Source of the DNA: a bacterium
GTDB lineage: Bacteria > ARS69
DNA length: 8,774 nt
Assembly (NCBI GenBank): GCA_025774865.1
Contig: JALGZO010000424.1
Coordinates: 1 to 8,774, forward strand
Direction: 5' to 3'
In this document: in pieces, positions 3 through 8,233 of the stretch
Position numbering within the stretch: position 1 is the first letter of the stretch
Layout of the letters: the number at the start of each line of letters is the position of its first letter
Position numbers and translations under genes: made by a program
Notes under the pieces: model-generated
Databases searched by the model: none
What the model saw: the letters and a program-made list of their open reading frames with translations, nothing else
What the model was told of the DNA's origin: nothing

Positions 3-245
3 TTCGGCGGCGGCTTCCGGGTCTCGCTGGCGAAGCAGTGGGGGGTCGACGTGATGGTCGAGGACCTCGTCCGGTTCGGCGTCGACATGTCGTATCTGAA
101 CGACGTGGGCACGCCCGATCCGGACCCGAGCCAGTTCCGCTTCTTCTCCACTACGTGGAACGGTAACAGTAACGCCACCATCCACAACTTCGGGTTACGC
201 ATCGGACTCACGTATGCGCTCTGGCCTTACGGGGCTCCGCGCTGA
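3..245 (+). CDS. C-terminal fragment of an outer-membrane beta-barrel protein (partial, 5' end outside window)
   Basis: The frame is open from the left edge (codon at 3-5) to TGA at 243-245, giving the last 80 residues of a longer protein. The visible part alternates polar and hydrophobic residues as beta-strands do: FGGGFRVSLAKQWGVDVMVE near the edge, an acidic Pro/Asp-rich loop (TPDPDPSQF), then a closing strand NFGLRIGLTYALW. This fits the last strands of an OmpA/porin-like barrel in the outer membrane, with a glycine-rich strand and an aromatic near the end. The terminal residue is not the usual Phe, because a short YGAPR tail follows. Its 3' end overlaps by 19 bp the restored end of the convergent propeller gene (stop 227-229, minus strand). 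The family cannot be named from this fragment. That it is coding I hold fairly firmly; the barrel assignment less so. Confidence 0.6.
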   Translation, partial: FGGGFRVSLAKQWGVDVMVEDLVRFGVDMSYLNDVGTPDPDPSQFRFFSTTWNGNSNATIHNFGLRIGLTYALWPYGAPR

Positions 246-442
246 TCGGGTCGCAGCACGAGAACATCGACCGGCCCGTCTCCCACCAACCACGCGTCCC
301 GCAGGCTCACTGACGTCGCGTTGATCGCCAGGAGCAGATCTGCGTCGAAGCTCGTGACCCAGATCGTCTCGGTCACCGCGTCGACGGCGATGCCGGACAA
401 CCCCGACGAAGACAGCGCGGGATCAGAGGAATCCGGCAGGAC
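227..442 (-). pseudogene. Displaced C-terminal part (71 codons) of the propeller lipoprotein
   Basis: Read on the minus strand from 442, this segment continues the propeller out of frame with the 297-residue product. It encodes VLPDSSDPAL, then blade-like GIAVDAVTETIWVTSFDADL, then VGDGPVDVLVLRP and a TAA stop at 227-229. The VGDGPVD segment matches VGDGPIDSGVV at the end of the propeller in the operon's first gene, which supports the two being parts of one protein. Deleting one 10-bp repeat unit joins it to Glu288 and gives an unbroken 359-residue lipoprotein. The segment has no plausible start of its own. It overlaps the convergent barrel gene by 19 bp. Confidence 0.8.
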
Positions 443-1316
443 TTCGAGGCTCTTCGAGGCTCGAGGCCACGTAGCGCCGCACCCCGCCCGAAAAACCCGC
501 GACCCAGACGACTCCTTCCTCGTCCAGGGCGAACCGACCGGGCGATCCCCCGAGGTCGACCCGGTCCACGGAGGTGAGCGTCGAGGGGTCCACGACGTGC
601 ACGCTCCCCGCTTCGTCGCTGGGGCCCGTGCCGTAGGTCCCGGTGCACAGCACATGCACGCGCCCGTCGGCCGCGACGAGCACGTCCTGCGGATTCCGCC
701 CCACCGGAATCGATGCGACGACTCTCCACGCCGCGAGGTCGACGACGTCGAGCCGGCCGGTTCCGTATCCGCCGTCGCTCCGGTAGTTCGTGCACGCGAC
801 CCACGCGCGCCCGTCGGCGATGGCCACCCCCTCGGGCCCGAGGGAAGTGGACAAGGGCGGGCCAGCCCGCCGCGTCGCGAGATCGAGACGACGAACGTCG
901 CTGGACAGCCAATTCGTGACGATCGCCTCGTCGTTCGAGAGGGGAATGGCACACCACGGGTTGCTTCCGCGCCCTACGTCGATCCCGCCGCGTCTCGAAA
1001 GGTCGTGAGCGGCCAGGATCTCCACGTCGTTGTCGCCGGACGCCGTCACCAGGAGCTCCAGGCCGTTCGGCGTGGCGGCCACGCGGTTGGGCACCGCTCC
1101 GTGAACGGCGGCCTGCACGCTCATGATGCCGGTGATGGGGTCGAGGCTCGATAGCGTCCACGAAAGCGAGTTGACCACGAGGATGCGAGGCGGGGATGGG
1201 GGCAGATCCTCGCCCGGCGCCGGAACGCGATCGGGATCGGGCGAAACAGGATCCTCGGCGCAGGCGGCGACGAACGCCGCCGCGACCACGAGAAGGCAAC
1301 GCGACAGCGCGTTCAT
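423..1316 (-). CDS. YVTN-type beta-propeller lipoprotein, BtuG-like candidate (frameshifted; truncated to 297 aa as read)
   Basis: Last gene of the cobalamin-riboswitch operon. Residues 1-19 are a lipoprotein signal ending in the lipobox FVAAC (Cys19). A Pro/Asp-rich linker (22-43) follows, then propeller blades from about 44 with RILVVNS, GSNPW (117-121), EGVAIADGRAWVAC and PVGRNPQDVLVAADGRVHVL (204-223). This is the YncE/YVTN-like fold. In Bacteroides, BtuG is a surface propeller lipoprotein that binds B12 and docks on BtuB; lipidation, fold and operon here suggest the same role, but homology to BtuG itself is not shown. The start is ATG 1314-1316, which overlaps the previous gene's TGA (ATGA) with no good Shine-Dalgarno, so translation is probably coupled. 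After Glu288 the frame is lost through a 10-bp tandem duplication and runs EPRSPAGFL to stop. The missing 71 residues are encoded in the next frame down to 227. It may be a pseudogene, a strain-specific lesion or an assembly error. Confidence 0.75.
   Translation of the reverse strand: MNALSRCLLVVAAAFVAACAEDPVSPDPDRVPAPGEDLPPSPPRILVVNSLSWTLSSLDPITGIMSVQAAVHGAVPNRVAATPNGLELLVTASGDNDVEILAAHDLSRRGGIDVGRGSNPWCAIPLSNDEAIVTNWLSSDVRRLDLATRRAGPPLSTSLGPEGVAIADGRAWVACTNYRSDGGYGTGRLDVVDLAAWRVVASIPVGRNPQDVLVAADGRVHVLCTGTYGTGPSDEAGSVHVVDPSTLTSVDRVDLGGSPGRFALDEEGVVWVAGFSGGVRRYVASSLEEPRSPAGFL
442..462. repeat. Perfect 10-bp tandem duplication (2.1 copies) causing a frameshift
   Basis: Positions 442-451 and 452-461 are identical (CTTCGAGGCT), and the match runs on to 462. 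On the coding strand this is GAGCCTCGAA twice. Ten bases is not a multiple of three, so the extra copy shifts the lipoprotein gene by one base. Removing either copy restores the reading frame and the propeller. Confidence 0.9.
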
Positions 1317-2848
1317 CGGAGCACCGTGACTCTGAGAGTCCGCTTCGATCCGGTTTCCCGTACGAAGTACACGCCGGAGCTCGCCGGACGTCCTGCCCCG
1401 GTGCGTCCGTCCCAGAAGGTGTCGGGGTCACCGACCGGCAATCGTCGCACGACCTTTCCTCCGATGTCGAAAATGACGAGGTCGCTCGCGGACGCGGCTC
1501 CCGTCCGTCGGAAGCGGGCGGCTCCGCGCGTCGGGTTCGGGAACGCGAGCCACGCGGCGGCGGGAGAAGAGCCGGAGACGTGGGTGCCCGCGGGCCCGCC
1601 GCGACGAAACCAGAGGTCCTGATTCCCGCCCCGTTCGTCCTTCCACACGATCGAGACGAACGCCCCGTGCGCGAGCACGCTCGGCCGGACGGAGTTGCTG
1701 TTCGCGTTCGAGACTCGGAAGTCCCCGGATGGATCCACGTCCCACACGGCGCCTGGCGCCTTCGTCTTGTGGAAGACCTCCCAGGCGAAGAGGCTGTGCC
1801 GCGCGTCGCTCCAGACGAGGTGAAGCGAGCCATCGGGACCCGTATCGAGGCTCGGCTCGTCGGCGCCGGGGGAGAACGTGATCTGCTCGGCGAGCGGGCT
1901 CCAGACGCCGGACGAGCGGACTCGCGTGAACAGTGCACGCGCACCCGCCCGCGCGTCGGGCCACACCACGTGGACGTCGCCGGTCCCGTCGACCGCGAGC
2001 GCCGGAGCACCCTGGACGGCGCCGCCGAGATCGATGTCGAGCGGAACGGACCAGAGACCGGTGCCCGTGTCGCGGTGCGCATAGAGAATGCTCGCCCCGC
2101 CGCCGACGCTCCTCCAGGCGGCGTGCAGAGCTCCGGCCGCGTCGACCGCGACGGCGGGAAGCTCGGAGTGATCGGAGTCATCCGTCACGCGCACGTCGGC
2201 GGAGTCGCCGGGCGTGAGGTCCCAGTCGCCGCCGGCCGGCCGGGTCTTCGAGAGGATCTCCGCGTGGTTCCCGTCGAAGCGATAGTCCCACCACACGACG
2301 TGGAGCGTGCCATCGCCGGCGGCGGCCGGAACCGGGACGTAGCCGTTGTCGCCGAGCGCCTCCGGATGATCCGTGGTGGTGAGACGGACGTCCGCCGCCC
2401 GACTCGAGTCCCACGCGCCCCCGGCCGGCTTCGTCTTCGTGAAGATCTCCACGTTGTCGATGCCGCCCACGCGGTAGTCATGCCAGAAGAGATGAAGGTC
2501 GCCGTCCGGCGTGGTGGCGAGGGCCGGGAACTTGGCGCCGATGTCGTCGCCAGGATCGCCCGGATCCGAAGCCGGGTAATCGACCACGAGCTCCGGCGCA
2601 GTCCATCCGCCTGCGCCGAGCCGCTTCGTCCAGATTCGATACTGCTGACTGGGTGAGTCACGTTCCGCCCAGACGACGTGGAAGATGCCGTCGGGCGTGA
2701 TGGCGAGCGGCCGGTGGTTCAGTCCCGTCTCGGTGTCGGTCGGCGTCTGCGAAACGTTCACCTCGGCGGTCCACGCGGCCGGGGCGGCGGTGGACGCGCT
2801 CGGCCCGGCGAGCGCGAGCGCCAAGGCCGCGATGGACGCGCGCGTCAT
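1313..2848 (-). CDS. Secreted seven-repeat beta-propeller with FlgD/T9SS-like C-terminal Ig domain
   Basis: 511 residues. A signal peptide covers 1-23 (hydrophobic, ending STAAPA). Seven related units follow, each centred on a strand of the form LHVVWxDxR: near 57 (FHVVWAE), 118 (LHLFWHDYR), 182 (LHVVWWDYR), 241 (LHAAWRS), 292 (VHVVWPDAR), 342 (LHLVWSDAR) and 398 (VSIVWKDER). Each is preceded by P-x-(L/V)-A-x-(T/V/D)-x-DG. This is the pattern of a seven-bladed sialidase/BNR-like propeller, though no sialidase Asp-box (SxDxGxTW) is seen, so I do not call it an enzyme. A FlgD-like Ig domain ends the protein (AFPNP 435-439, FDIGGKVVRRL 460-470, WDGRTGAGRPASSGVYFVR). I chose ATG 2846-2848 because AGGGGG (2855-2860) lies 6 nt upstream and a signal peptide follows; the longer open frame runs through the receptor gene. 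It overlaps both neighbours by ATGA. Its position implies a role at the surface in corrinoid uptake; ligand unknown. Confidence 0.85.
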   Translation of the reverse strand: MTRASIAALALALAGPSASTAAPAAWTAEVNVSQTPTDTETGLNHRPLAITPDGIFHVVWAERDSPSQQYRIWTKRLGAGGWTAPELVVDYPASDPGDPGDDIGAKFPALATTPDGDLHLFWHDYRVGGIDNVEIFTKTKPAGGAWDSSRAADVRLTTTDHPEALGDNGYVPVPAAAGDGTLHVVWWDYRFDGNHAEILSKTRPAGGDWDLTPGDSADVRVTDDSDHSELPAVAVDAAGALHAAWRSVGGGASILYAHRDTGTGLWSVPLDIDLGGAVQGAPALAVDGTGDVHVVWPDARAGARALFTRVRSSGVWSPLAEQITFSPGADEPSLDTGPDGSLHLVWSDARHSLFAWEVFHKTKAPGAVWDVDPSGDFRVSNANSNSVRPSVLAHGAFVSIVWKDERGGNQDLWFRRGGPAGTHVSGSSPAAAWLAFPNPTRGAARFRRTGAASASDLVIFDIGGKVVRRLPVGDPDTFWDGRTGAGRPASSGVYFVRETGSKRTLRVTVLR

Positions 2849-4791
2849 CTCGTTCCCCCTTGGAGGCTGAAGCCGAGCCTCCACGTGCGACCGGGTAAGG
2901 GGTAGTCGCGAAAGTCGCGCGCGGCTTCGTTGGTGACGTTCGTGACGGCGGCGTCGAGGGCGAGTCCGCGACGAATCCCGACCCGGGCTCGGACCTCGCC
3001 CGTCACGTAACCGTCGAGCGATTTCGTGTTCGCGCGCGTGACCCAAACGTCGCCGACCCCACGCCAGAGCGTTTCGAGTTCGGTGCGTCCGCGACTCGCG
3101 ACGAGGCCGGCGGCGCCGCTCCACCGGGGCCGATACACGAGCGCCCGGCCGTCGACGTTCGCCTCCCCGGTGCGGTCCCGCGTCTCGAGGAACGTGGCGG
3201 AGCCCGTGACCGCGACTCGCCAAGCCCGCGGGAGCGCGATCCCCAAGCCCCCCTCGGTCTCGACGCCGGCGATGCGAGCGCGCCCGACGTTGTGCGGGCG
3301 CCAGATCCCGCTCGCTCCGGGGGTCCATTGGATGAGGTCGTCGACGTCGCGCACGAACGCGTCGACCGTGAGGTGTCCATGCGCGGGGAGACGGAGGACC
3401 AGCCCGACGTCGAGATCGCGTCCGCGCTCCGCGCGAAGATCCGGATTCCCCGCCGCCGTCGCGCGAGCCGGCCAGAACAGCTCGTCGAAGGAAGGGGTCC
3501 GGTACGAGAGCCCGAACGAGATCCGCAATCCGAGACGATCGGGCAACGCGTCGAAGAGAAGGCCGAGTCGGGGACTCACGAACGGATCGAAGTCCTCCAC
3601 GAAGTCTCCGCGTACGGCACCCATCCAACGCAGCGAGCGGCCTCCGACGGTGTGATCGCGCGAAACCTGAGCGCGCAGGTCGAAGGCCCGCCGGCGTCGG
3701 TACCCGTCGGTCGAGCTGTCGAGACGATCGTGAGACGCGCCGGCGGCCAGTCGGAGTGACGTCGCGTCACCGATCCGCGTGGCCGCCGCTTCCGCGGTTA
3801 GCCTCGAATTCTCGTGCGTGTCGTCCACGGGACCGAATGCGGCACCCGGCTCCCAGTACCGTCGGGCCAGCCGGATCCACCCGACATCCGCGGTCGTGTG
3901 CCACGGGCCCCGGCCGGCACGTCGGGCGCCCACCCCGGCGACGACGCGCTCGTCCCGGAGCCGGGCCGTCGGCGTGGGGAACTCCTCGCTGCCGGGGAGG
4001 CCGCGCTCTGCTCCGTCGCCCGCGGCGTCGACCCGCAGATCGAGTCCGCCCGCGCTCCCGTCGAGCCGCAGGTCTCCGCCCAGTCGTCGAAGGTCCGCGT
4101 TCTCCATCGTCATCGTGGTGCCGCGACGATCGTCGACCCATTCCCAGGTGCCGTCCGTCTCGAAGAAGCGACCCGACCCCTGGGCAGTCCAGCCGCGGCC
4201 GAGCGACGCGGCGGCGCGGCCCGAGACGTTGTGCTCACCGTGCGATCCCGCCGCCACCCGGAGCCGCGCCTCACCCGGCGTGGGCCGGCGCGTTCGCACG
4301 TGGATCGCGCCACCGACGGCGTCACCGCCCCAGAATGCCGACGCTCCGCCGCGAAACACCTCGACCGACTCCACCGACTCGAGCGGAATTGCCGAGAGAT
4401 CCACGCCACCGCCCTGCGCCGGATTCCATCTTCGTCCGTCCACGAGAACGAGCACCTGATCAGCGGTCGACCCGCGGATCGAAGCCGAGGAGCTCACGCC
4501 CGGAGAGCCCGTCGAGGTCACGCGCACCCCCGCGATGGGCAGCAGCACCTCGTGGAGGTCGGCACCGGGCCGGCGACTGACGACGTCGCGGCCGATGCGT
4601 CGGGTCGCGAGCGGAAACGGGCCCATCGGATCGGGCAGAAGTGGCGCGCGCAGCTCGACGACCGGAAGGACGAACGACGGGAGTGAGTCCGGCGGAGCGA
4701 CCGCCGTCGAGTCGCGCGAAGTCTCAGCGGTCGCGATGGCCGACGCCACGGCCACGAAGCCGCTCGCGAGCGCCCCGGAGAGTCCGGTCAT
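2845..4791 (-). CDS. btuB: TonB-dependent outer-membrane receptor, BtuB-like (cobalamin/corrinoid uptake)
   Basis: 648 residues, close to the ~600 of BtuB. An N-terminal hydrophobic segment (5-21) acts as signal peptide. FVLPVVELRAP (40-50) is the likely TonB box region. The plug domain (about 65-170) shows DLHEVLLPIAGVRV, SIRGSTADQVLVLVDGRRWN, IPLESVESVEVFRGGASAFW and GGAIHVRTRR, all typical plug landmarks. The rest is a 22-strand-type barrel with RTPSFDELFWP, GNPDLRAERGRDLDVG and a closing AVTNVTNEAARDFRDYPLPGRTWRLGF segment, which ends in Thr-Arg rather than an aromatic. Substrate assignment rests mainly on the cobalamin riboswitch ahead of the operon; the family alone could also be a siderophore or other receptor. 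The start ATG (4789-4791) overlaps the previous stop as ATGA and lacks a visible Shine-Dalgarno, so expression depends on coupling. No TonB, ExbBD or BtuCDF gene is in the window. Confidence 0.9.
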   Translation of the reverse strand: MTGLSGALASGFVAVASAIATAETSRDSTAVAPPDSLPSFVLPVVELRAPLLPDPMGPFPLATRRIGRDVVSRRPGADLHEVLLPIAGVRVTSTGSPGVSSSASIRGSTADQVLVLVDGRRWNPAQGGGVDLSAIPLESVESVEVFRGGASAFWGGDAVGGAIHVRTRRPTPGEARLRVAAGSHGEHNVSGRAAASLGRGWTAQGSGRFFETDGTWEWVDDRRGTTMTMENADLRRLGGDLRLDGSAGGLDLRVDAAGDGAERGLPGSEEFPTPTARLRDERVVAGVGARRAGRGPWHTTADVGWIRLARRYWEPGAAFGPVDDTHENSRLTAEAAATRIGDATSLRLAAGASHDRLDSSTDGYRRRRAFDLRAQVSRDHTVGGRSLRWMGAVRGDFVEDFDPFVSPRLGLLFDALPDRLGLRISFGLSYRTPSFDELFWPARATAAGNPDLRAERGRDLDVGLVLRLPAHGHLTVDAFVRDVDDLIQWTPGASGIWRPHNVGRARIAGVETEGGLGIALPRAWRVAVTGSATFLETRDRTGEANVDGRALVYRPRWSGAAGLVASRGRTELETLWRGVGDVWVTRANTKSLDGYVTGEVRARVGIRRGLALDAAVTNVTNEAARDFRDYPLPGRTWRLGFSLQGGTR

Positions 4792-6386
4792 CGAACGCGA
4801 AGCACGCGGGTGACGGCGGACTCCCCTCCGACGCGGGCTCGTGCAAAGTAAGCCCCTGGCGCCGCGACCCGTCCGGCAGCGTCACGCCCGTCCCAGATTA
4901 TCGTGGAGGCGCCGCGCGGTCGCGGGCCGGCGTCGATCACGGTGACGCGTCTCCCGCGCACGTCGAGGATCTCGAGGGAGGCGCGGCCCGCGCTCGCGAG
5001 CTCGATCTCGATCGACGTTCGCCGCCGGAACGGATTCGGAAACGCGCGACGGATCGCCAGGCGTTCGTCGGAAGGTGGTCGGCGCAGAAACGTGATCGAG
5101 GAGGACCATCGGATCGCGCCGCTCGCGCGAACCGCGCCCACGCGATACGTGTAGGGCACGTCCGGTCTCAGGCCGCGATCCACCCACGCGGTCTCGGGAC
5201 GCACGGGAAGCTCGGACGCGATCCGCTCGTAGTCGGAGTGCGCCGGCGTCTTCCGGTCGACGACGAATTCGATCACGTCGGTTCCGGTGAGCGCGCGCCA
5301 AGACAGACGCACGCCGTCGCCGGCGGCGACGGCCGAGAGACCGGACAACAGGATCGGGACCGGGTCCTGGCGCTCGACGACTCCGGAGTCGATGGGACCG
5401 TCGCCGACGAGGACGGCGCCAGGGTCTCCGGGGCCGCTCAGATCCTCGATCACGAGGAGGTCGCCGTCGAAGTCGGGCAGCAGCACCTGGCCGCCGGCGG
5501 TCACGCGCGGATTGCCGAGGAAGTGGAAGGTCTCGAAGAGAGGATCGGAGCCGTCGTGGGTCCAGGTGAGTGACGCCGCGTCGTACACCCAGATCTCGGA
5601 GCCGAACGAGAACGTGAGGACGTTCAAGACCACATCGCCGGCAGCATGGACGGCGCCGCCCCCCGGGTAGCCAGCGACGCCGAGCGTATCGACCGGCGTG
5701 GAAGTCACGGGGTCGATGACGTGGACGGTTCCCGCCGTCCCGGCGAAGTCTCCGGTGCAGATGACGTGGACCCGTCCGTCGGGGGCGACGAGGCACTCCT
5801 GTGGATTGATCCCCACCGAAACGGTCGCGACGGGCGACAGGTCCGTGAGGTCGAAGACGGACACGGTTCCGGGATCGTAAAGAAAGGTGTCGAGATCGAA
5901 GCCGGTGTTCGCGACCCAGAGGCGACCTGTGACGACGCACATTCCTTCCGGAGCCTTGCCGGTGGGCGCGCTGTCGACGATGGCGAGGCTCGAGCGATCC
6001 ATTTCGAAAACCGTGTCGTTCGCGAGCGCGGTGACGAACATGCGGTCTCCGACGATCTCGATTGTCCACGGGTTCGATCCCACCGGCAGGGCGATCGCGC
6101 CGGCGACGCTCTCCGATTCGAGATCGAAGATCGTGACGTTGTCCGAGCCGGAATTGGCAATGGCGGCGTAGGAAAGGTCGCCGGCCACCTCGATCCGGTT
6201 CGCGAGGGAACCGAGAGCCGCGATGGCGGGGACCACGATCTGCGTGTCGAGATCGACACGTGCGAGACTGGCGTCGTTGGAGCCGACGACGTAGGCCGCC
6301 CGCGACGGCGGTAGGGCGTCGGCGTTTGTACTGGCGAGAATCAGCGCGACGAACGCGCCTGATCCCCATCGGGCCGGAATCGACAT
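4788..6386 (-). CDS. Secreted YVTN-type beta-propeller with FnIII-like and FlgD-like C-terminal domains (BtuG-like candidate)
   Basis: First gene of the riboswitch operon, 532 residues. A signal peptide covers about 1-25 (hydrophobic AFVALILAS, cleavage near NADA) with no lipobox. The propeller covers about 30-338: AAYVVGSNDASLARVDL, YAAIANSGSDNVTIFDLE, GSNPWTIEI (103-111), GRLWVANTG, VGINPQECLVAPDGRVHVIC (191-210), VGDGPID. Residues 345-435 look like a fibronectin-III domain (LSWRALTGTDVIEFVVDR, YTYRVGAVRASG). Residues 445-532 are a FlgD/T9SS-like Ig domain (AFPNPF 448-453, LEILDVRGRRV, WDGRDAAGRVAAPGAYFARA). The propeller shares specific segments with the lipoprotein at the operon's other end, so the two are paralogues. 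I chose ATG 6384-6386: GGAGGA (6391-6396) sits just upstream and the signal peptide starts here. The longer open frame would translate the riboswitch. A role as surface corrinoid-binding partner of the receptor is inferred. Confidence 0.88.
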   Translation of the reverse strand: MSIPARWGSGAFVALILASTNADALPPSRAAYVVGSNDASLARVDLDTQIVVPAIAALGSLANRIEVAGDLSYAAIANSGSDNVTIFDLESESVAGAIALPVGSNPWTIEIVGDRMFVTALANDTVFEMDRSSLAIVDSAPTGKAPEGMCVVTGRLWVANTGFDLDTFLYDPGTVSVFDLTDLSPVATVSVGINPQECLVAPDGRVHVICTGDFAGTAGTVHVIDPVTSTPVDTLGVAGYPGGGAVHAAGDVVLNVLTFSFGSEIWVYDAASLTWTHDGSDPLFETFHFLGNPRVTAGGQVLLPDFDGDLLVIEDLSGPGDPGAVLVGDGPIDSGVVERQDPVPILLSGLSAVAAGDGVRLSWRALTGTDVIEFVVDRKTPAHSDYERIASELPVRPETAWVDRGLRPDVPYTYRVGAVRASGAIRWSSSITFLRRPPSDERLAIRRAFPNPFRRRTSIEIELASAGRASLEILDVRGRRVTVIDAGPRPRGASTIIWDGRDAAGRVAAPGAYFARARVGGESAVTRVLRVR

Positions 6387-6413: not shown

Positions 6414-6482
6414 CGGAGCGACGAACCGATGGGTATGAGCATCGACGTCACCGGCCTCACCCTCGAAGGCGGTACACGATTG

Positions 6483-6618
6483 GTCCGGGCCGGTCTCCTG
6501 GCTCGCGGGTCGGCCGACTCCCGCGCCTTCCGGATATCTCCGTGGCACGTGCGGGAACCGTCTCCGCATACAGTGGCGGGGCCGCGCCGGCTTCCCACCG
6601 GCTTCCCGTCACCCGGAC
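6483..6618 (-). ncRNA. Cobalamin riboswitch aptamer
   Basis: Read on the minus strand, the conserved core is present in order. GGGAAGCCGGTGGGAAGCCG (about 6588-6607) leads into CGCGGCCCCGCCACTGTA with the GCCACTG block at 6571-6577. Then comes CCGGAAGGCGCGGGAGT, and finally the B12 box GCCAGGAGACCGGC at 6489-6502. A perfect 7-bp closing helix pairs GTCCGGG (6612-6618) with CCCGGAC (6483-6489), and GCGGG/CCCGC forms an internal arm just before the B12 box. These blocks match the known cobalamin aptamer family. It lies about 100 nt ahead of the first operon gene, so cobalamin binding should repress uptake genes. At about 136 nt it is compact. The exact subclass (AdoCbl or aquo/MeCbl type) I cannot decide by eye. 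Confidence 0.95.
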
Positions 6619-6669
6619 TGTGAACGATCCACCGCTCGCCGAGCTTGGCAGCGAGCTGTGACCAAGGCA

Positions 6670-6729: not shown

Positions 6730-6735
6730 TAGAAT
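6730..6735 (+). promoter_or_regulatory. Putative -10 element for the selenoprotein/cytochrome gene
   Basis: TAGAAT matches the -10 consensus at 5 of 6 positions and lies about 65 nt before the TTG start. The -35 region near 6707-6713 (TTTCGAC) is a poor match. The divergent cobalamin-operon promoter lies just to the left, so both promoters would share this short region. Confidence 0.25.
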
Positions 6736-6799
6736 CGCCGCCCGGAACCGCTTCCACGGCCCGGGGTTTTCAGCTCGATCCCAGAATCGGAGTGTTTTC

Positions 6800-8233
6800 T
6801 TGCGTTGGTTCCGCCCTCTCGTCGCGCTCGTGATCTCCGTTGGCGCCGTCGTTTCCGCCCGGGGGCAGGCCGAGGATGCCGCTGGGAGCCCCGAGCTTTC
6901 GCTCGAGGAGGAGCTCGCCCGGCTGAAGGCGGAGGTCCTCAGAGGGGCCCCGACCGATGATCCCTTCGCGGAGGGCCGCGTGCCCGATCTCGTGGTCTTG
7001 TCGGTGACGGACGTCGCCGGCGAGATCGCGCCCTGCGGGTGAGGCAAGAACCCGAAGGGTGGGATGGCCCGGCGGGCCGCCTTCATCGATAGCGTCCGCA
7101 CCGAAGTCGGAGGGGTCGTCCTCGTGGACGCAGGAAACTTCACCGGTCACCAGGTGGAGACGGCCGAGGCGCGCAGCCTCTTCCTGCTCGAGGTGATGAA
7201 GAAGGTCGACTACGACGCGATCACGATCGGGGCCTCCGATACGAGGCTCGGAGGAGGTCTGCTGCGCTCGATCGTGCAGGGCGGAGAGTACCCGTTCGTC
7301 TCCGCCAACATCGTCGATTCGGAGAGTCGAGATCTCGTTTGCGATCCCTATCGAATCATCGATCGGGATGGGCTCCGAATCGGCATCACCGCGGTCACGT
7401 TCTTTCCGTTCGCCAAGCTCGAGAGCGTGCAGGCGGAGGGCTTCGATGCGCTGGATCCGGCTGAGTCGCTCGAGAAGATCGTACCTGAGCTACGACGCGA
7501 GGCCGACGTGGTCATCGTGCTCGCGCGAATGCACTCGAACCGGGCGCGACAACTCGGTGAGCACTTCGTGGACATGCTGGACGTGGTCGTGGTCGGAAAC
7601 TCGGAGGGCGGCCGCGGGCTCGTCCATCCCGAAAACGGCGGGGCCGTGTACGTGACGTCCAGTGACCGCGGCCAATCGTTCGGTGTCGCGAAGCTCGCTC
7701 TCGCGGACGGGCGCGTCGATCGAGTGACGGGCGACGAAGTGATCCTCACGAAACGTCTGCCGGAAGAGCCGGAGATGTTGTCCACCGTCCAGGAGTTTCA
7801 GCGCAATCTCAACGACCTCATGAGGATCCAGGCCGCGACGGGGAAGGCGCTCCAGTCGTCGGCGGATGGACACTACTATCTCGGCGTGGAGAGCTGTGCC
7901 TCTTGCCACGAGCGGGAGTACGAGATTTGGCGCGAGACGCCGCACGCTCACGCGTTCCAAACGCTCGTGACCGCGGGCCAGGAAGCGCTGCCGGAGTGCT
8001 ACGGGTGCCACGTGACAGGACATGGCGATCCGATCGGGTACGATCCGGCCGTCGACGGAGATGCGCGTCTCGTCAACGTGCAGTGCGAAGTCTGCCACGA
8101 CAAGGGTAGCCGTCACTCGCGCGACGGCGACTACGGGCGCTCCCTCTTGATGAACGCGTGCGGACAGTGCCACGATCCCGACAACAGCCCGGACTTCGAT
8201 GCCGAGATCTACTGGCTGATGATGGAGCATTAG
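6800..8233 (+). CDS. UshA-like domain/tetraheme cytochrome c fusion, candidate selenoprotein (in-frame TGA = Sec81)
   Basis: Read through TGA 7040-7042 this is a 477-residue exported protein. The start is TTG 6800, with GGAG (6789-6792) 7 nt upstream and signal peptide residues 1-23. A UshA/metallophosphatase-like domain covers about 63-340: VPDLVVLSVTDVAGEIAPCG, then Sec81, GKNPKGGMARRAA, VVLVDAGNFTG, YDAITIGASD. From memory, relatives carry Cys at this point (PCGC...GG-ARR), so TGA replaces a conserved Cys in a CGC-type pair. The C-terminal part is cytochrome c554-like with four heme motifs, CASCH (366), CYGCH (400), CEVCH (429) and CGQCH (454), plus His-rich TPHAHAF. The phosphatase signatures look degenerate (GNHE to GASD, GHSH to GNSE), so a redox role in the periplasm or on the surface is likelier than nucleotidase activity. 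Downstream sequence stays in the same frame, and a SECIS-like hairpin follows. A nonsense mutation or sequencing error remains possible. A naive call would give only 7064-8233, without its signal peptide. Confidence 0.8.
7040..7081 (+). promoter_or_regulatory. UGA codon with SECIS-like stem-loop (Sec insertion element)
   Basis: Directly after UGA, GGC (7043-7045) can pair with GCC (7079-7081). Inside this, GGCCC (7066-7070) pairs with GGGCC (7074-7078) around a GGC loop that starts 29 nt after the UGA. An apical stem-loop with G in the first loop positions, about 16-37 nt from the UGA, is what bacterial SelB-dependent elements show. A smaller hairpin, ACCC-GAA-GGGT (7050-7060), lies between. 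The region is GC-rich and also encodes conserved residues, so chance pairing is not excluded. Confidence 0.5.

Follow-up and report, generated by a model that had tools for sequence, protein, structure and literature searches.

The main finding is a gene that very probably encodes an exported tetraheme protein with selenocysteine (Sec) inserted at an in-frame UGA codon. The protein forms a new divergent branch of an already named family, NCBIfam NF041198 (UshA_like_PCGU), and in five genera its gene is arranged head-to-head with a cobalamin riboswitch. The window, by which we mean the whole stretch of DNA analysed (8,774 nucleotides), is an entire contig (G000:C428) of a MAG of 4.7 Mb in 785 contigs, estimated to be 92.7% complete with 8.3% contamination. 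The features discussed below are collected in Table 1.

Table 1. Features of the selenoprotein gene, its neighbours in the window and the selD gene of the same assembly
Feature	Position	Strand	Evidence and remarks
Shine-Dalgarno-like GGAG	6789-6792	+	7 nt upstream of TTG 6800-6802; read directly
Full selenoprotein gene	6800-8233	+	477 aa with Sec81; frame, translation, NF041198 profile match, homologue alignments
Signal peptide MRWFRPLVALVISVGAVVSARGQA, TTG start	6800-6871	+	Translation shows a positive N-terminal end and a hydrophobic core; cleavage site guessed
Metallophosphoesterase-fold (UshA/5'-nucleotidase-like) domain, most metal ligands lost	6980-7840	+	Profile, alignments, predicted model, Foldseek
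P-C-G-U motif	7031-7042	+	UGA Sec codon 7040-7042; putative redox pair Cys79/Sec81; C79 and Sec/Cys81 invariant in 18 aligned homologues
Putative bacterial SECIS hairpin	7061-7083	+	Apical loop GGC 7071-7073, 28 nt after the UGA
Tetraheme cytochrome c554-like tail	7895-8173	+	Pfam Cytochrome_C554 1.1e-13; PDB cytochrome c554 1.4e-6; invariant motifs
CXXCH motifs	7895-7909, 7997-8011, 8084-8098, 8159-8173	+	Residues 366-370, 400-404, 429-433, 454-458
Cobalamin riboswitch heading the divergent operon	6471-6631	-	Rfam RF00174, 99.2 bits
Exported beta-propeller and FlgD-Ig protein, first operon gene	4788-6386	-	Profile searches
TonB-dependent receptor, BtuB-like	2845-4791	-	Best NCBIfam match TIGR01779 (vitamin B12 receptor), 155.4 bits; under the cut-off of 599.7
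Sec-encoding selD	L010 1420-2355 (G000:C477)		In-frame TGA

Reading the frames directly, a single frame runs from the TTG at 6800 to the TAG at 8231-8233 (the gene end given in Table 1 includes this stop codon), and its sole break is the TGA, which separates the segments 6800-7039 and 7043-8230. The initial annotation had proposed that the two segments form one protein with a signal peptide, an UshA-like domain and four CXXCH hemes, and that the TGA falls within PCG-(TGA)-GKNPKGG. Each of these proposals was borne out, with the coordinates unchanged: the NF041198 match of the joined product extends to either side of the TGA (E=2.3e-73), and codons 7031-7042 read CCC TGC GGG TGA, giving the peptide PCG-U-GKNPKGG. 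The protein is laid out as a signal peptide, a linker, the UshA-like domain with P78-C79-G80-U81 immediately after its first strand, and the four-CXXCH tail. Candidate TTG starts preceded by a purine-rich, Shine-Dalgarno-like sequence were also found in orthologues, whose N-termini are comparable to the signal peptide of the window protein. Between the riboswitch and the TTG start, a TAGAAT-like hexamer was noticed by eye (6730-6735); this intergenic stretch contains no other strongly conserved element, and a sigma-70 scan of it gave no match.

Comparison with homologues bears directly on how the TGA is read. Each of the remaining four genomes from the bacterial family has an orthologue (42-50% identity) in which a TGA occupies the identical codon and both flanks are conserved. 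More widely, position 81 is occupied by TGA in 15 genes and by Cys in nine distant homologues (PCGC, PCSC, PCNC or ACGC), with Cys found in a myxobacterial homologue as well. Across 18 aligned proteins, C79, the Cys or Sec at position 81 and all four CXXCH motifs are invariant. Because the NF041198 match and the sequence conservation extend across both sides of the codon, and because orthologues from four genera share the TGA, we do not regard it as a chance occurrence or a sequencing slip. An in-frame UGA aligned with a Cys of homologues is one mark of a bacterial selenoprotein; another is a genome with selA, selB, selD and tRNA-Sec, and here too the expected genes were found. Profile searches placed selA, selB and selD above their cut-offs in the same assembly, together with a tRNA-Sec (72.7 bits, anticodon UCA), and SelD itself carries an in-frame TGA (SHTAG-U-ASK). 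These genes sit on contigs other than that of the window. The tRNA-Sec is nearly identical across four related genomes and SelA is 66% identical to the SelA of two sister genomes, so the machinery looks native rather than the product of contamination.

The hidden-selenoprotein interpretation of the initial annotation is thus supported, and none of the three outcomes it had named as counting against that interpretation came true. The search of the same genome for selA, selB, selC and selD recovered all of them (selC as the UCA tRNA-Sec), the alignment across the TGA revealed the expected Cys, and the same TGA recurs in the separately assembled genomes of other genera, which does not fit an error for TGC or TGT. 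It is very improbable that the TGA is a true stop, leaving a pseudogene or a truncated 80-residue peptide with the remainder translated from the internal ATG at 7064 without export. Such a reading is what a standard gene caller would give, and ATG 7064 does open a frame of 389 aa; however, it is at odds with the TGA shared by four other genera amid conserved flanks, with the TGA carried by the second PCGU paralogue of this genome, and with the intact Sec machinery. Moreover, attachment of c-type hemes takes place only outside the cytoplasm, so an unexported tail would be useless. Least probable of all is decoding of the TGA as a residue other than Sec (Trp, or general stop read-through), which would account for the open frame and for which nothing further was found, whereas other species have Cys, never Trp, at the aligned position, tRNA-Sec and SelB are present, and the orthologues L058, L059 and L060 terminate at TGA stops, so that the code is not one with TGA as Trp and TGA is not simply reassigned.

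For the bacterial SECIS hairpin that follows the UGA, the published limits are an apical loop 16-37 nt after the UGA and a G in its first two positions (PMC13188914). In 11 Sec homologues a hairpin occurs in a common register, as CUGGCCC-GGC-GGGCCAG or a close variant, with the loop 28 nt past the UGA and G first; position and loop therefore fall within these limits and are kept in 11 genes, while the single-sequence stability is not exceptional. Given the 11 sequences unprompted, RNAalifold selected the identical 8-pair hairpin. Pairing is satisfied in 95.5% of cells, compared with 25-53% when the partners are slid, and covariation is slight, with one pair showing a double change. Against a synonymous-recoding null (random, using the codon usage of each gene) the mean z was -1.16 for 15 Sec genes versus -0.24 for nine Cys genes, the genes within this comparison not being independent. 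Taken alone, the window sequence after the UGA shows no unusual stability (z -1.13), and the hairpin conserved in the comparison is not its minimum-energy fold. The encoded proteins also differ between the two sets: an Ala after GG[L/M] is kept in 14 of the 15 Sec genes (GGLARRA in nine) versus none of the nine Cys genes. Such retention would follow if the hairpin constrained the protein sequence, and the conservation of GG-Leu/Met-Ala-Arg type residues after the UGA in Sec genes fits that constraint. We consider the comparative case for a SECIS hairpin good but not decisive, given the non-independence of the genes and the small number of double changes. A separate Rfam match in this region, Pospi_RY at 7030-7085, scored under its gathering threshold and was taken as chance.

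The phosphoesterase-like part of the protein has the metallophosphoesterase fold common to the 5'-nucleotidases UshA and CD73 and to SoxB. The profile match reaches E 4.5e-36, and Foldseek comparison of the predicted model with 5'-nucleotidases and SoxB gave E-values down to 1.4e-17. In the AlphaFold2 model (built with five sequences) this domain is largely at pLDDT 70-95, while the heme tail is under 50, and for this reason no Sec-heme distance was taken from the model. The six metal-ligand positions of CD73, which we take to be D36, H38, D85, N117, H220 and H243, align in the window protein with Asp71, Ala73, Asn113, Ala145, Arg243 and Asn267, such that Asp71 is the one ligand kept and the six-ligand set of a metallophosphoesterase is lacking. 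Across the aligned homologues the metal ligands of the CD73/UshA fold all vary, unlike C79, Cys/Sec81 and the CXXCH motifs. The window protein also departs from UshA and CD73 at its C-terminus, where the heme tail occupies the place of the nucleotide-binding domain of the nucleotidases.

The tail matches PF13435 at 52.3 bits (gathering score 20.8), identifying it as a multiheme cytochrome c. It resembles the Nitrosomonas cytochrome c554 (PDB 1bvb) by both the Pfam Cytochrome_C554 and the PDB sequence matches; the latter is a stand-alone protein, whereas the tail is a C-terminal module of about 115 residues within a larger one. Among the aligned homologues His382 and His439 are invariant and His477 nearly so, and these residues could provide the distal ligands of three hemes out of the four.

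A redox role for the window protein is probable. As most metal ligands are gone while the Cys, the Sec and the hemes are invariant, the window subgroup likely performs redox chemistry rather than phosphoester hydrolysis. In the mechanism we propose, SelB and tRNA-Sec would insert Sec at residue 81, and the protein would be exported and would acquire four c-type hemes. Together, Cys79 and Sec81 would constitute a C-x-U redox pair that cycles between the selenol/thiol and selenenylsulfide states, positioned on a phosphoesterase-fold platform stripped of most of its metal-binding residues, and the c554-like tetraheme module would relay electrons to or from this pair. The protein would thereby be a periplasmic oxidoreductase, its C-x-U pair on a retired phosphoesterase platform exchanging electrons with a tetraheme relay. 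The substrate is most likely a small thiol, sulfur or metal compound of the periplasm.

Alternatively, the protein could be a working metallophosphoesterase (nucleotidase) in which the Sec or Cys merely aids the binding of metal or substrate, perhaps of a sulfur group as in SoxB. The shared UshA/CD73/SoxB fold is compatible with this, as is a second paralogue group that retains about four of the six metal-ligand positions. We nevertheless judge it unlikely for the window protein, given that Asp71 alone is kept among the six positions and that the fusion to a tetraheme tail suggests electron transfer.

The oxidoreductase that we favour belongs with a family already described in databases. The joined protein scores 247.5 bits against NF041198, a model of 519 positions, in two matched stretches corresponding to profile positions 21-271 (the UshA part) and 357-517 (the cytochrome part). 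It shares with that model the PCGU motif after the first strand and the combination of an UshA-like N-terminal part with a C-terminal multiheme (CXXCH) part in one chain. Since this falls short of the curated cut-off (275), the window protein is by profile comparison a divergent relative rather than a strict member under the NCBI rule; it further differs in its linkage to a cobalamin riboswitch and in having lost more phosphoesterase ligands than the paralogous group. Another UshA-like selenoprotein family, NF049981 (UshA-like (seleno)protein family 2), gave a weak match (38 bits, cut-off 140), and differs in its CxxU motif and its length of 262 positions, with no room for a cytochrome tail.

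Neither the selenoprotein idea nor the heme fusion is new, as PCGU is part of the family name and the cytochrome tail is contained in the NF041198 model. The initial annotation was right that an UshA-like selenoprotein family had been publicly named; the fusion to a C-terminal cytochrome c that it had singled out is indeed present, but its novelty did not hold. An UshA-like CxU selenoprotein (COG0737) was reported in a 2008 ocean survey (PMC2398784), COG0737 UshA is listed as a CxU selenoprotein in a review (PMC9312934), and the NF041198 UshA-like (seleno)protein is likewise listed as CxU in a further review (PMC13188914).

The second paralogue group forms a clade separate from the window subgroup. 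In the genome of the window it is represented by a PCGU-TGA tetraheme gene adjoining a pyruvate kinase gene (L042 1423-2805; G000:C289), and with three sister genomes it comprises L042, L043, L027 and L031; further TGA homologues occur in other lineages. The relatives of L042 in the three sister genomes keep more phosphoesterase metal ligands than the window protein, and this group exceeds the NF041198 cut-off in G002 (292.5) and G001 (278.5). A scan of contigs with patterns derived from the narrow orthologue alignment returned five loci only. In other lineages, the PCGU-TGA homologues L025, L029 and L045 lack in-frame CXXCH motifs downstream of the TGA; a hairpin with a GGUC-type loop, resembling the E. 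coli fdhF element, follows the UGA in L025 and L029. A search of the genome of the window for ExtKL (NF040886), as another Sec-cytochrome, gave weak matches only.

The window subgroup is a supported clade of five (100/99), and in all five genera (the window and four sisters) the selenoprotein gene lies head-to-head with a cobalamin riboswitch. The minus-strand operon behind the riboswitch encodes, in order, the beta-propeller/FlgD-Ig protein, the TonB receptor, a BNR-type exported protein and a second propeller; the TonB-receptor operon was confirmed in four of the five genomes (window, G001, G002 and G003), the G004 contig ending too early. The arrangement in the window, with the riboswitch followed at 1313-6386 (minus strand) by exported beta-propeller/FlgD-Ig proteins around the BtuB-like receptor, recurs in related genomes, and B12 uptake may involve the propeller proteins as surface or periplasmic partners. 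At the far end of this operon, a perfect tandem repeat of 10 bp at 442-461 (CTTCGAGGCT twice) frameshifts the last gene: the propeller protein at 423-1316 (minus strand) stops early and its C-terminal end seemingly continues in the frame of 227-952 (minus strand). The repeat is either a recent mutation or an assembly error.

No cobalamin riboswitch was found beside homologues outside the subgroup, the second paralogue group included (most examined with flanks of about 1.5 kb); the linkage is specific to the window subgroup. A search of the literature found no description of it. We lean slightly towards the adjacency being an inherited neighbourhood without functional meaning: the five genomes all come from one bacterial family, and dinB (Pfam IMS) is likewise a common neighbour, located downstream of the gene in G001, G002 and G004. 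However, dinB was not seen beside the gene in the window or in G003, where a sulfatase-family gene on the other strand occupies that side, while the riboswitch side has been kept in all five genomes, and the proteins of different genera share only about 50% identity. The conserved neighbouring operon makes a role in connection with corrinoid uptake possible, though of low probability. A more specific version we regard as unlikely: having lost its phosphoesterase centre, the protein would be a specialised periplasmic selenocytochrome for corrinoids, using its Cys-Sec pair and its four hemes to reduce, de-ligand or repair cobalamin passing the neighbouring TonB receptor and propellers, which are under B12-riboswitch control.

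In summary, no described function for a selenoprotein family of the NF041198 type was found in the literature, and the gene reported here adds a clear, machinery-backed case to this family. It also shows how the exported, Sec-containing half of such proteins is lost in standard annotation. Together, the cobalamin riboswitch kept next to the gene in five genera and the lost phosphoesterase centre provide a concrete functional lead for at least one branch of the family.
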